From an uncultured SAR86 cluster bacterium (GTDB lineage: Bacteria > Pseudomonadota > Gammaproteobacteria > Magnimaribacterales > D2472), in NCBI GenBank assembly GCA_902594005.1, contig CACJKN010000004.1, positions 1 to 63,668 on the forward strand: 63,668 nt of DNA. The letters run 5' to 3'. This document shows, one piece after another, positions 26,060 to 62,520 of this stretch. How positions within the stretch are numbered: the stretch's first letter is position 1; each line of letters opens with the position of its first letter. A program made the position numbers and the translations under genes. Below the pieces are notes generated by a model. It ran no database searches. It saw nothing but the letters and a program-made list of their open reading frames with translations, and was not told where the DNA came from.

Positions 26060-27832
26060 TTAAATATTAAGTAAAGTAAATATCTCTTTACTAAGAGGTA
26101 TTTGCTTATCTTGAATTGCAGAGGAAACAATCTCTGCGAGGAAAGGGGCATAGGATAAACCTCTAGAACCAAGCCCTCCTATACAATAAATATTTTTTGC
26201 TCCAGGTATTTTTGATGCTATAGGAAAATTATTTTTAGCACTCACTCTTTCACCATCCCATAGATCTTGTATCTCAAAAGACATACCTTTTTTGCCAAAA
26301 ATGGCATGATTTAATTTAACTTTCTCCTCAATATTTTCTTTTTTAAAATCTGTTGACTGTTCATATGTACTTCCTATCCAATTGGTGCCATTTACTTTTG
26401 GAATAATATATCCCTGATGATTGAGGGGCATTTTAATATTGAATAGATCCTTGTTGCTTATGCCTGCCATCTGTCCATAGCTAACTTTAAGATTGTCATT
26501 AAAATCTTTGAGGCCTTTTCCTGTGCAAACTGCAAGAGCATCATAAGATTTGCGCAGACCAGACTTAAAATCTACTTCAACTTTATTCTTTTCTTCAGTA
26601 AAAGAGACAAACTTCTCATTAAGTATGATTTTTATAAAGCGATGCTCCAGTAATTTCTTTTTTAATTCTAATGGTTGAAGGAATAGTCCTTTTTTTACAT
26701 GCAGAGCTTTTTTTATCTCACTGACTCCAAGCAAATCTTCTAACTCATCATCGTTTAAGAGTTCAAATAAATCATCTCTTTTAAGAGTTAATATCTTAGA
26801 AATCCACTTATCTTTGGTTTCATCTAATCCATAAAAAAGTAATCCCGTATTCTCAAAGCCAAGAGTTTTAATATAAAAATTTAATGAAAAGAAATAAGAA
26901 GCAATTAAAAACTTGGATCTTGGGCTATTATCCAAAGAGAATTTTGGATACATGGAAGCAATTGGACCACCTGACGAACCCTTGCTTAAGTCATCTAGAG
27001 CATCATATACATCAACTTCAATATTAGAATTTGCAAGGTTAAAAGCTAAGTTACTCCCAGAAAGACCAGCACCCAAAATTGCAATCTTCTTGATCTCATT
27101 GGATTTCTTATTTTCTTCAAACTTTCTACCAACAATTCGATGTCTCTTAGTGCCAAACCCTGGTATTTTGCTCACCTCAAAGCCATTTTCTAAAAGCGCT
27201 CTTCTTATCCTTCCTACCGAAGTAAAAGAGCTAAAAGATGAATCACTAGAGCTAAGATCAAAAACCGCTTTTAAAACATCTTCTGTCCACATCTCAGGAT
27301 TTTTCTTTGGATCAAACCCGTCTAAGAACCAGGCATCTATATTTGAAATGCAAATATCATTTATTGCTTTTTGAACATCTTCGGTCACTAAAATTAATCT
27401 AATTTTAAGATCAGGTATCGAAATGCACTCGAAACCATTATGACCAACTACATCACATTCTTTAAGGATCTTGATTTCTTTTTTTAAGTTTGGAAATGTT
27501 TCCTCAAGCAGCACCAGATTTCTTTTCTCTAGTATTTTTTTATCAATTCCTATGTAATCAAGATTAAAGGACCTCTCTTTCTTTAACCAACAATGCATCG
27601 TAGTTAAGAAATTTAAACCTAAACCAAAACCCAGCTCACCAACAGTAAAACAACTCCCTGAGAAACTTTCCCACCTCTCTTCGAGGTTATTACCATCAAT
27701 GTAGACTTCTTTTGATTCCTCAAATCCATTATCTTGGAAATACCTATCTTCATAATCTTTGGAAGCAATTGATCCTCCATCTAAGGTTGTTTTGTGATGT
27801 TCTACTTTTAATGGATGATCGTTCACTTTCAA
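26060..27832 (-). CDS. mnmC: Bifunctional tRNA U34 modification enzyme MnmC
   Basis: 590 residues. The N-terminal methyltransferase domain (1-240) has the SAM loop GELGFGLGLN (65-74) and the conserved DGFDPKKNPEMW (171-182). The C-terminal FAD-dependent oxidase begins with GAGLSGSN (254-261) and ends with the GLGSRGLSYAPF block. It converts cmnm5(s2)U34 to mnm5(s2)U34 in certain tRNAs. The length is a little shorter than the E. coli enzyme (668). Its ATG lies 24 nt from the likely start of the divergent sulfatase. Confidence 0.95.
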   Translation of the reverse strand: MKVNDHPLKVEHHKTTLDGGSIASKDYEDRYFQDNGFEESKEVYIDGNNLEERWESFSGSCFTVGELGFGLGLNFLTTMHCWLKKERSFNLDYIGIDKKILEKRNLVLLEETFPNLKKEIKILKECDVVGHNGFECISIPDLKIRLILVTEDVQKAINDICISNIDAWFLDGFDPKKNPEMWTEDVLKAVFDLSSSDSSFSSFTSVGRIRRALLENGFEVSKIPGFGTKRHRIVGRKFEENKKSNEIKKIAILGAGLSGSNLAFNLANSNIEVDVYDALDDLSKGSSGGPIASMYPKFSLDNSPRSKFLIASYFFSLNFYIKTLGFENTGLLFYGLDETKDKWISKILTLKRDDLFELLNDDELEDLLGVSEIKKALHVKKGLFLQPLELKKKLLEHRFIKIILNEKFVSFTEEKNKVEVDFKSGLRKSYDALAVCTGKGLKDFNDNLKVSYGQMAGISNKDLFNIKMPLNHQGYIIPKVNGTNWIGSTYEQSTDFKKENIEEKVKLNHAIFGKKGMSFEIQDLWDGERVSAKNNFPIASKIPGAKNIYCIGGLGSRGLSYAPFLAEIVSSAIQDKQIPLSKEIFTLLNI

Positions 27833-27856
27833 GTTAGAATTATGCTGAGGCTCTTA

Positions 27857-46804: not shown

Positions 46805-48025
46805 ATGAGTATGAATCTAAGACCTGAAGCCCAAGAATTATTAGAAAGAGTATCTAATTTTCTTGAAAGTGAGGTTGCTCCTAACGAAGCTAAATTTCAT
46901 GAACAAATAAAAACTGATGAAAACAGATGGAATTATTTCCCGGAGATTGTTGAGGAGCTAAAAGACAAGGCAAAATCTCAAGGTCTTTGGAATCTATTTC
47001 TGCCCGAAAGCGAATTTGGAGCAGGACTAACAAATTATGAATATGCTCATCTTGCCGAGCAAATGGGAAAATATAGTATGGGATCAGAGGTTTTTAATTG
47101 TTCAGCTCCTGATACCGGAAACATGGAAGTTATAGCAAGATATGGTAATGAAAAACATCAAGAGGAGTGGCTAAAGCCTTTACTTGATGGTGAGATAAGA
47201 TCATGTTTCGGAATGACAGAGCCTGGTGTAGCTTCGTCTGATGCAACAAATATGCAAGCGACTGCTGTTTTAGATGGCGATGAATATGTTATTAATGGAG
47301 AAAAATGGTGGACCTCAGGCGCAGGAGATCCAAGATGTAAAATTATGATATTTATGGGTGTCACGAACCCAGATAATGCAAAACATCAAAGGCATTCTAT
47401 GATCTTAGTTCCTATGGATGCAGATGGTTTAGAAGTCCAAAAAATGATGCATGTATTTGGCTATGATGATGCTCCTCATGGCCATGCGCATATCAAATTT
47501 AATAATGTAAGAGTTCCAAAAGATAATTTACTTCTCGGTGAGGGAAGGGGGTTTGAAATTGCTCAAGGAAGATTGGGACCTGGAAGAATTCATCATTGTA
47601 TGAGGGCTATTGGTGTAGGCGAGAGAGCACTTGAATTAATGTGTACTCGGGGAATAGACCCAAACAAAAATGCATTTGGTAAACCTTTGGCACAACTAGG
47701 TGGTAATTTCGATCATATTGCAGACTCTAGAATTGAGCTTAATGCAGCAAGACTACTAACACTTGATGCTGCTCATAAGATGGATACCGTTGGAAATAAA
47801 GTTGCTGCAAGTGAGATTGCACAAATTAAAGTTATGGTTCCAAACATTGTTCTCGATATAATTGACAGAGCGATTCAAATACATGGAGGTGAAGGAGTTT
47901 CACAGTTAACACCTTTAGCATCTATGTTTGCTCATATGAGAACATTAAGACTAGCTGATGGTCCTGATGAAGTACACAGAAGAGCTGTAGCAAGATATGA
48001 ATTGGGAAAATATATTACGAAATAA
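46805..48025 (+). CDS. Acyl-CoA dehydrogenase
   Basis: 406 residues starting at ATG 46805, preferred over the GTG at 46793 because GGGGA lies 6 nt upstream. It has the acyl-CoA dehydrogenase domains with [16 protein letters not shown] (CoA/FAD contact), [10 protein letters not shown], and C-terminal [15 protein letters not shown] with [15 protein letters not shown]. The GEGV block is that of the long FadE/ACAD10-11-like group. It probably oxidises an acyl-CoA using ETF. It is divergent from and likely controlled by the LysR regulator. The following lipoprotein's possible start lies inside its 3' end. Confidence 0.93.
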
Positions 48026-60357: not shown

Positions 60358-61476
60358 ATGTCTTATCAAGTTCTTGCAAGAAAATATAGACCAAATTCCT
60401 TTGATGAAGTCATTGGTCAAGACCATGTTGTTCAAGTTATTAAGAACAGCATTGAGCAAGAAAGAGTGCATCAAGCTTTCCTTTTTAGTGGAACAAGAGG
60501 GGTGGGCAAGACAACAATTGCAAGACTTCTAGCGAAGTGCCTAAATTGCATGTCATCTGATTCTCCAACTTCACAGCCATGTAACAAATGTGAATCATCT
60601 ATATCTATTCAAGAAGGAAAAAGTATTGATTTCCTTGAGATAGATGCAGCTTCAAGGACTGGAGTAGAACATATGAGAGAACTTCTCTCATCTGTTCATA
60701 CATCTCCAAGCGTTTCAAGATTTAAGATCTTTTTAATCGATGAGGTTCATATGTTGTCCAAAGGCAGTTTTAATGCTCTTTTAAAAACGCTGGAGGAACC
60801 TCCAAGTCATGTCATTTTTTTAATGGCTACGACGGATCCTGAAAAAGTTCCTAAAACAGTAATTTCTAGATGCCTTCAGCTAAATCTTAAAACTGTTTCT
60901 AGAAACGAGCTTCAAGAACATTTCAAAAAGATTTGTGAAAAAGAAGGAATCAAATCAGATGATGAGTCTTTATCTTTAATTGCAAAGTCCGCTGAAGGAT
61001 CTGTAAGAGATGGTTTAACTTTGCTTGATCAGGCTATTGCTCATGGCAACGGAAAGTTAGTTGCCGATGATGTAAAAAAACTTTTAGGTACGATCGATGA
61101 CAGCTTGATTCATGAGTTACTTGATTCTATAACTGACGGAAGAAAGGAAGATGCATTTAAAACGTTAAATGATATTGAAAAACTCAACCCGGATTATGAA
61201 GTCCTTTTGAAAGATTTAATTTCAAATATTCATGAAGTTTCATTGCATCAATTTCTTGAAGACTCAAATAAAGAGGCCATTGCTAATATAGCCTCTAAAA
61301 TGGATGAACAGTATTGCCAACTTATATATGAAATTGGCATTAATGCTTTTCAAAAGATTCACACTCATCCATCACCTAGAGAAGCAGTAGAGATGTGCTT
61401 ATTAAGAATGCTAGCCTTTCAGCCTGTTCAAAATATCAATACAGGCGAAGTAAAAACTCAAAAAAAAAAAGACTAA
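60358..61476 (+). CDS. dnaX: DNA polymerase III gamma-type subunit DnaX (zero-frame product)
   Basis: 372 residues from ATG 60358, ignoring the TTG at 60349. Clamp-loader AAA+ ATPase: Walker A GTRGVGKT (45-52), a four-cysteine zinc module (Cys61, 64, 75, 78), Walker B DEVH (128-131) and Ser-Arg-Cys sensor region (SRCLQL). The zero frame stops at 61474-61476 just after an 11-A run. The tau-specific C-terminal region is open in another frame directly downstream. This may be a programmed slippage site or a homopolymer error. The usual ybaB is absent between dnaX and recR. Confidence 0.95.
   Translation: MSYQVLARKYRPNSFDEVIGQDHVVQVIKNSIEQERVHQAFLFSGTRGVGKTTIARLLAKCLNCMSSDSPTSQPCNKCESSISIQEGKSIDFLEIDAASRTGVEHMRELLSSVHTSPSVSRFKIFLIDEVHMLSKGSFNALLKTLEEPPSHVIFLMATTDPEKVPKTVISRCLQLNLKTVSRNELQEHFKKICEKEGIKSDDESLSLIAKSAEGSVRDGLTLLDQAIAHGNGKLVADDVKKLLGTIDDSLIHELLDSITDGRKEDAFKTLNDIEKLNPDYEVLLKDLISNIHEVSLHQFLEDSNKEAIANIASKMDEQYCQLIYEIGINAFQKIHTHPSPREAVEMCLLRMLAFQPVQNINTGEVKTQKKKD
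61459..61471 (+). other. A11 slippage site in dnaX
   Basis: C followed by 11 consecutive A and then G, in the dnaX zero frame reading CAA AAA AAA AAA GAC TAA. Losing one A (or gaining two) by transcriptional slippage, or a +1 ribosomal shift, joins the reading frame to the downstream tau region. A -1 shift stops after a few codons at 61488-61490. Confidence 0.75.
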
Positions 61477-61921
61477 TAAGGCCCAAATAAAGACTGCAAA
61501 TAAAGAAAAACCTCAAATAAATGAAGAGGCTGCTCAACAGACTTATGAAATAAACTCTTCTTCTTGGCCTACTTTATTTAACGATATGCAACTTTCATCA
61601 TTTGCTAAGAATTATTTTGGGAATCTTTCATTTGTAAGATTTAATGACCAAAAGATATTTTTATGCGGATCAGCAGATCAGCTTGATATCCCTAAAAAAA
61701 TTATTAGTGAGTTTGAGGAAAAAATTAAAGATAAATTTGGTAAGATTGAGGTCGGCCTTGAAGAGGGTATTTCCTCATCTTCACCAAATATAATCAATGA
61801 AGAAAATAATATTAAAGATATTGAAAAAACAAAAAAAGAACTCTCAAGTGATTCTGAAATTAAAGACTTTTTAGATGAGTTTGATGGCGAAATTGAGGTT
61901 GTAACTAAAATAAAGAATTAG
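61460..61921 (+). CDS. dnaX: Tau-specific C-terminal region of DnaX, in the +1 frame
   Basis: This frame is open from the A-run to the stop at 61919-61921, encoding about 150 residues. A stretch beginning SWPTLFNDMQLSSFAKNYF and continuing through ISEFEEKIKDKFGKIEVGLEE resembles the DnaX C-terminal domain that follows domain III in tau (the W-x-x-L...L-x-L-x-x-x-A-x-x-L-A pattern). It is not an independent gene: an internal ATG at 61586 would omit the start of the domain. Full tau would be about 520 residues after slippage. Tau binds DnaB and the polymerase core. Confidence 0.8.
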   Translation, partial: KKKKTNKAQIKTANKEKPQINEEAAQQTYEINSSSWPTLFNDMQLSSFAKNYFGNLSFVRFNDQKIFLCGSADQLDIPKKIISEFEEKIKDKFGKIEVGLEEGISSSSPNIINEENNIKDIEKTKKELSSDSEIKDFLDEFDGEIEVVTKIKN

Positions 61922-61923
61922 AA

Positions 61924-62520
61924 ATGAGTTCGGATTTATTAGATAAATTAATTAAGGCATTAACAATTCTTCCCGGAGTTGGGAAGAAATCTGCGCAAAG
62001 AATGGCTTTATATCTGTTGGACAAAAATAAAAGTGGTGCCAGAGAGATTGCTAGCTCTCTCAGTGATGCGCTTGATAATATTCAAAGATGTAAGTCGTGC
62101 AGAATGTTAACAACAAATGATTTATGTCATGTCTGTCAGGACGAAACAAGAGATTTACAATCCATTTGTGTGATTGAAAGCCCATCTGACCTTTTGGCAA
62201 TTGAATCTGCAGGAGGGTATAAAGGAAAATACTTTGTCTTAATGGGAAGACTCTCACCGCTTGATAATTTAGGCCCAGATGATCTAGGAATTCCTCAACT
62301 TTTGGAGAGGATTGATAAAGAAAATATAAAAGAGATAATTCTTGCACTAAGTTCTACTGTTGAAGGTGATGCAACTGCAATATTTATCAAGGATCATGTT
62401 GAGAATATTAAGGTTTCAAGAATTTCCTATGGTATTCCGATCGGAGGAGAGTTAGAGTATGTTGATAGTAATACAATAGCTAGATCAATAATTGGAAGAG
62501 TTGAAATAAATGACGATTAA
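61924..62520 (+). CDS. recR: Recombination mediator RecR
   Basis: 198 residues. It begins with a helix-hairpin-helix ([13 protein letters not shown]), then zinc cysteines Cys56, 59, 68 and 71, and a TOPRIM domain with [13 protein letters not shown] and [10 protein letters not shown]. RecR works with RecF/O to load RecA at gaps. The gene begins 2 nt after the tau stop and overlaps dcd by 11 nt. Confidence 0.96.

Follow-up and report, generated by a model that had tools for sequence, protein, structure and literature searches.

The dnaX gene lies near the right end of a 63,668-nt stretch of SAR86 DNA (the whole stretch analyzed, referred to below as the window), in the gene order recX-dnaX-recR-dcd, and it raises the question of how gamma and tau, its two predicted products, could both be made. 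Its zero frame encodes gamma and closes just past a run of 11 A residues (A11), and the tau-specific part stands in the +1 frame. Does this gene make gamma by default and tau by slippage, i.e. the reverse of the order known from Thermus, or does it carry one A too many? The features of the locus are collected in Table 1. The run is bordered by C at 61459 and G at 61471 and is directly followed by GACTAATAA; the zero-frame codons across it read CAA AAA AAA AAA GAC TAA, and the +1 frame stays open through 61918.

Table 1. Features of the dnaX locus of the window (positions in the window)
Feature	Coordinates	Strand	Basis or remark
dnaX zero-frame ORF, gamma, 372 aa	60358..61476	+	ATG at 60358, TAA at 61474-61476; Pfam matches and identity to congeners
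A11 run at the gamma/tau junction, presumably slippage-prone	61460..61470	+	congeners have A10 here
TAA terminating gamma, zero frame	61474..61476	+	3 nt past A11
TAA of the -1 frame	61488..61490	+	17 nt past A11
tau-specific C-terminal part, +1 frame	61472..61921	+	TAG at 61919-61921; amino-acid constraint
recR (context only)	61924..62520	+	start 2 nt past the tau stop

Both parts of the gene are readily recognized. The gamma part matches the Pfam delta2/AAA+, DnaX lid and gamma/tau domain III families, each above its cut-off, and is 88–97% identical in amino acids to its counterparts in eight congeners and 60% identical to that in the ninth. The tau part is 86–88% identical to the tau C-terminus of three congeners. 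Its match to tau domain V (PF12170) is below threshold (19.8 bits for a cut-off of 28.8, E 0.00095), which is no sign of damage since the two intact congeners scanned score equally poorly or not at all (L004, 18.3 bits; L006, no match at E≤0.01). The preliminary description of this DNA was thus exact as to the run and the frames, and its further statements hold as well: the -1 frame soon closes, the +1 frame encodes a DnaX C-terminal domain, and on these frames tau would require one A fewer, two A more, or a +1 shift.

The tau part is also under amino-acid constraint. Its dN/dS between the window and four relatives is 0.19–0.24, compared to 0.09–0.23 for six other pairs, so that a pseudogene is not supported for this part. 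Since the tau part is constrained, the A11 run, if real, would be recent, or tau would still be produced. Note that the dN values between the window and L003, L004 and L006 (0.057–0.060) lie above those among L003, L004, L006 and L007 (0.031–0.045, five pairs computed), and that the value for the window and L005 (0.088) equals that for L005 and L006; a slight relaxation of the tau part in the window is possible.

Comparison within the genus locates the anomaly. In all nine other genomes, dnaX is a single frame of 520–529 codons (by the count of the search). In eight of them, a run of A10 with similar flanks stands where the window has A11 and shares its phase, and the ninth, the one that is 60% identical, carries A10 in a different phase; tau is in frame in all nine, so that the odd thing in the window is the extra A and not the run. 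A one-base homopolymer surplus had been put forward in the preliminary description as the rival to its own reading, and it gains weight from these same-phase A10 runs. The refuting case that was also envisaged there, homologues whose frame is continuous and that lack an A-run, gave a mixed result: the frame is continuous, but the A-run is present with it.

Is the assembly at fault in general? The genome of the window, 79% complete, measures 0.99 Mb (989 kb) and is split into 30 contigs. When the window was compared to three relatives, 57 of 66 relative ORFs (G008), 62 of 77 (G002) and 39 of 41 (G005) matched at ≥60%; the frame-broken cases were dnaX alone for G008, dnaX plus one ORF at the window edge for G002, and dnaX, one edge-cut ORF and one doubtful case at 27850-26622 for G005. 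A generally poor assembly is therefore not supported, dnaX being the sole clear break among the 57 and 62 genes compared to G008 and G002. In the doubtful case (26622-27850, minus strand), the G005 ORF matches two overlapping frames near its C-terminus, possibly reflecting a small frame difference; it was not flagged in the comparisons to G008 and G002. Yet this test does not tell mutation from error, because both are likeliest in the longest homopolymer and no coding homopolymer sampled is longer than the dnaX run: in 227 ORFs (with 212 kb of coding sequence, from about 224 kb sampled of the 989-kb genome), A7, A8, A9, A10 and A11 runs number 116, 39, 4, 0 and 1, respectively, the sole A11 being the dnaX site, and T runs reach 8 at the longest, T9+ being absent. 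The other long A-run of the window is found in the ORF at 47997, at its codon 17.

The run itself extends far beyond the genus. We surveyed 203 genomes of the SAR86 order, of which 171 gave a dnaX match and 32 none; 165 loci were read (the matches of G109, G124, G131, G136, G147 and G164 were left unread), and 164 of them are readable at the run, L186 being excluded as it lies at a contig end. An A9–A11 run is present at the gamma/tau junction in 162 of the 164 (A10 in 113, A9 in 45, A11 in 4; one locus has A8 and one, L226, no run), at query codons ~344–375, just past domain III, and in 20 of the 21 genera. Tau is in the unslipped frame in 159 of the 165 loci, the window, with tau at +1, being an exception. 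The run is retained where the identity of the gamma part has fallen to about 41%, and each of the three codon phases is in use: family f1 mostly has phase 1, f2 has phases 1 and 2, f3 has phase 0 and f4 mainly has phase 2. Thus, what is kept is the bases and not the amino acids or a peptide. A DNA search around the run gave nothing beyond the results of the protein search. Altogether, there is an order-wide conserved run of the slippage type, and this conclusion is independent of whether the A11 of the window is correct. Note that L226, the sole readable dnaX of the order lacking a junction A-run, comes from G162, the only genome of its genus sampled and, with 1.8 Mb, the largest among the order genomes with a dnaX match.

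The window is not alone in lacking a zero-frame tau: five more of the 165 loci do so. Two of them differ by one A from close relatives: L245 has A10 where its sisters L248 and L249 have A9, which puts tau at +1 as in the window, and L125 has A8 where its genus-mate L134, with near-identical flanks, has A9, which puts tau at -1. Taken with the window, they amount to a one-A change in 3 of 164 genomes, in a run of about ten bases. The others are of a different kind, the frame being broken past the run in L155 and ahead of it in L185, and L186 being cut by the contig end.

The run is accompanied by stops in both other frames. These were counted in 158 loci, i.e. excluding L226 and the six without zero-frame tau (L002, L125, L155, L185, L186 and L245), and compared to shuffles of the 40 codons downstream. 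A -1 stop lies within 15 nt of the run in 152 loci (108 ± 5.6 after shuffling), a +1 stop within 15 nt in 124 (57.6 ± 5.8), and 139 loci have stops of both off-frames within 20 nt (50.1 ± 5.8), the median distances being 5 nt in the -1 frame and 8 nt in the +1 frame. With one random locus drawn per genus, both stops are near in 18.2 of 20 cases, compared to 6.7 ± 2.1 after shuffling. This order-wide pattern of a conserved run with close stops in both off-frames could not have been seen in a single genome. An E. coli-type site requires the -1 stop only. For Thermus dnaX, the Atkins 2016 review (PMC5009743), as excerpted, names nearby stops in both non-zero frames.

What could maintain such a run? 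That it has no function and merely results from AT-rich DNA in a linker rich in lysine might be suggested by the codon usage, as AAA makes up 76% of the lysine codons in the first 340 codons and as A9 arises in 16% of the trials when 60-codon linkers are codon-shuffled. However, this rate predicts A9+ runs in 26.8 of the 164 loci, compared to the 162 observed (bearing in mind that codon shuffles only partly account for shared descent); only 5 of the 227 ORFs sampled from the genome of the window itself contain A9+; the columns around the run in the 96 loci with A10 in phase 1, a set defined by that run, have 33–88% majority identity (30 columns before, 35 after); and in a gammaproteobacterial family described below (G355), A9 is present in 29 of 29 readable loci, at a locus GC content of 42–64%. 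We thus hold a by-product to be very improbable. More deserving of attention is the proposal that the run serves the ribosome, with SAR86 gamma arising by -1 frameshifting as in E. coli dnaX (PMC5009743, in the excerpts used). Gene and products are the same in both; the run of the eight A10 congeners ends in CAA AAA AAA AAG, which holds the E. coli heptamer A_AAA_AAG in frame, and 17 of 163 loci carry an in-frame heptamer at the run, which is present in nine f4 genomes as well as in these eight congeners. Moreover, the -1 stops are very close, nearer than the +1 stops, and in the single-contig SAR86 genome G052 a single tRNA-Lys(ttt) is the only tRNA-Lys in the set of tRNAs read, which covers 30 of 34 loci and their neighbors; this is a condition that favors shifting in E. 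coli. The lone tRNA-Lys(ttt) is no help to the slippage reading, since the Atkins review (PMC5009743), as far as excerpted, ties two tRNA-Lys to Thermus slippage; in the genome of the window (79% complete), no tRNA-Lys was found among 28 tRNAs. Against the ribosome, the heptamer is missing at the run in 146 of the 163 loci, i.e. from most of the order, and is absent from the zero frame of the window; the run exceeds seven bases and occurs in any phase; and the +1 stops are enriched as well. A general downstream stem-loop as in E. coli is likewise not evident. The predicted fold of the 60 nt starting 3 nt past the run has a median z of -0.17 relative to base shuffles in 81 of the 163 loci, with 6 below -2, and that of the 63 nt downstream of the run in the window has a z of -0.18. 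Shine-Dalgarno cores of four bases within 20 nt upstream are found in 26 of 163 loci and cores of five bases in 8 (simple matches, without a chance level), and an Rfam scan for the DnaX element over 61000-62200 reported none at E≤1. The fold values and the Rfam scan leave a structured ribosomal frameshift signal unsupported, and an E. coli-like origin of SAR86 gamma appears improbable. For the SAR86 dnaX genes, transcriptional slippage is, judging from sequence comparisons, likely, and ribosomal shifting, alone or in addition, would be unlikely.

Transcriptional slippage would account for the two proteins as follows: (i) RNA polymerase would slip on the A9–A11 run, which separates the clamp-loader part from the tau tail, yielding mRNAs with varying numbers of A; (ii) in most SAR86, tau would come from the unslipped mRNA, whereas a gain or loss of one or two A would lead into the nearby stops and give gamma, as in Thermus; (iii) in the genome of the window, where the template has one A more than in congeners, the unslipped mRNA would give gamma, and tau would depend on a slip of minus one or plus two A. 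The one-A difference between the window and its congeners would thus swap the default and the alternative product. In the A10 congeners that share the next bases of the window, a +1-A slip or a -1 ribosomal shift would lead on to GAC TAA and yield the same gamma as the zero frame of the window, which ends in QKKKD. If the extra A is a genuine recent mutation, it might be tolerated because slippage would still yield some tau; alternatively, it may stem from an amplification or assembly error.

This brings us back to the extra A. The reading that it is purely technical, the run being truly A10 in an ordinary dnaX with tau in frame and its eleventh A a product of amplification or assembly, comes somewhat short of an even chance in our estimate. 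It fits the restriction of A11 to one genome of the genus when eight congeners show A10 in the same place and phase, and the longest coding homopolymer sampled is also the likeliest site of error. Several congeners bear AG- or AH- isolate names that we take to denote single-cell genomes, and the titles of some say 'MAG'. A comparable extra A is seen in the dnaX run of L105, an alphaproteobacterial locus described below whose SCGC label presumably also denotes a single cell, relative to its four sisters. On the other hand, no further clear frame break was found among the 57–62 window genes compared, so that the assembly looks good, and A-runs of such length mutate in living cells too. That the lineage of the window has truly switched to gamma as the default product, with tau made by slippage (minus one or plus two A), is possible but doubtful. 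Reversed dnaX genes are known (G248, L112 and, within one gammaproteobacterial family, 15 of 29 readable genes, see below), 17 of them were listed by Antonov 2013 (PMC3711429) and single-base role reversal in dnaX is discussed by Atkins 2016 (PMC5009743), both as excerpted, and the tau part of the window is still under constraint. But the reversed genes that are common to relatives carry tau at -1, which one extra A suffices to reach, and not at +1, which requires minus one or plus two A in the window, and A11 is present in none of the nine congeners. Those +1 cases that were read along with sisters (the window, L245 and L105, but not L108) differ from them. For these reasons, we favor an isolated insertion over an established reversed gene, an error being slightly ahead of a real recent change. 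The combination of a conserved slippage run with an isolated insertion in the window, real or erroneous, is probable. That gamma would be made throughout SAR86 by slippage on a selected A9–A11 run and that this species would have been flipped by one base to gamma by default, with tau obtained by -1 or +2 slippage, is rather unlikely. If such a flip were true, it would mean that an essential replication gene can pass from one expression layout to another by a near-neutral change of one base, here in a +1 orientation unseen among the reversed genes common to relatives.

How do these genes relate to known systems? Slippage of the Thermus type is marked by mRNAs that vary in A number and by tau and gamma at a ratio of about 1:1. 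Programmed transcriptional slippage in Thermus thermophilus dnaX was reportedly described by Larsen in 2000. It is treated in PMC5009743 and PMC1088944, in the excerpts used. Like the Thermus gene, most SAR86 dnaX genes have an A-run of at least nine at the gamma/tau boundary, tau in frame and two close off-frame stops; unlike it, their runs are mostly of 10 A and slippage is predicted, and in the window one additional A makes gamma the zero-frame product. Since tau is read without slippage in nearly the whole order, the order is Thermus-like and the gene of the window itself is not. The comparison to Thermus made in the preliminary description was thus apt, and its reversed order is borne out as a layout, but not as a novelty, the reversed layout (gamma by default, tau by recoding) being already in print. 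Antonov 2013 (PMC3711429), as excerpted, lists 17 two-ORF dnaX genes from 12 genera in which tau is obtained by recoding; 12 of the 17 contain a poly-A, of 10 A in nine cases, and all are -1 at the DNA level. The window resembles them in having gamma in the zero frame and tau in another frame past the poly-A; they differ in the -1 sign (taken at face value) and in recurring in 12 genera, the window being +1 and isolated, with none of nine congeners alike. In addition, the Atkins 2016 review (PMC5009743) states, in the part excerpted, that a one-base change can reverse the roles and names dnaX.

With Blochmannia and Buchnera, the window shares an AT-rich genome and a one-base poly-A indel with possible rescue by slippage. 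SAR86 bacteria are free-living, unlike Blochmannia and Buchnera. Frameshifted poly-A genes of the latter, with possible slippage rescue, are described in the excerpts of PMC3017870 and include the dnaX gene of Blochmannia, where, unlike in the window, the indel is downstream of the gamma/tau slippage site. Slippage leading to a short product is hard to detect by comparison according to Baranov 2005 (PMC1088944, as excerpted); the SAR86 data bypass this difficulty because the run and the off-frame stops are both conserved. As to why bacteria produce gamma, and how often they do so via slippage, a run kept through wide divergence in a marine order is strong comparative evidence for selection on gamma. 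On the practical side, such dnaX genes are easily mislabelled as truncated or mis-assembled. Our literature search found no paper combining SAR86 with dnaX, none on topic by title for SAR86 with 'frameshift', and nothing on point by listing on homopolymer errors due to amplification (subscription journals and bioRxiv being outside the search).

Junction runs are not confined to SAR86. A named collection provided 61 loci from other bacteria, of which 14 have an A9–A10 run in the linker stretch searched, 13 of them at codons 353–398, and seven of these 13 belong to loci of 56–63% GC. The loci with A9–A10 at the dnaX junction in other phyla or in GC-rich contexts comprise L062, L066, L069, L071, L095, L097, L101, L104, L115, L116 and L118. 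These runs suggest that slippage-type dnaX genes are more widespread than the few described cases. In L112, the zero frame gives gamma and tau stands at -1. The layout of the window recurs in L108 (Legionellales MED753), where an A10 run at codon 353 leaves a zero-frame gamma of 366 aa and tau at +1. In L105 (SCGC AAA028-D10), an A9 run at codon 434 puts tau at +1 and four sisters have A8 with tau in frame; this break is a possible parallel for an amplification error.

Among 49 loci of other Gammaproteobacteria, an uneven sample consisting of the best 29 matches and 20 picked ones, six of the latter for short frames (four of them due to contig ends), eight have A9+, and two of these eight (G355 and G248) are reversed, with tau at -1. 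The family of G248 is represented by one genome only. In the family of G355, 36 of 40 genomes gave a match and 30 loci were read (L381–L410), one of which is cut at the run. The remaining 29 all have exactly A9, at junction codons ~370; tau is in frame in 14 of them, and in the other 15 gamma is in frame and tau at -1. Antonov 2013 (PMC3711429), in the excerpts used, takes a frame direction that is unconserved among orthologues as pointing to transcription. The occurrence of both layouts on an unchanged A9 comes close to this criterion, so that slippage is favored in the G355 family, which with its two layouts on one A9 run provides a natural test of whether frameshifting is transcriptional or ribosomal.
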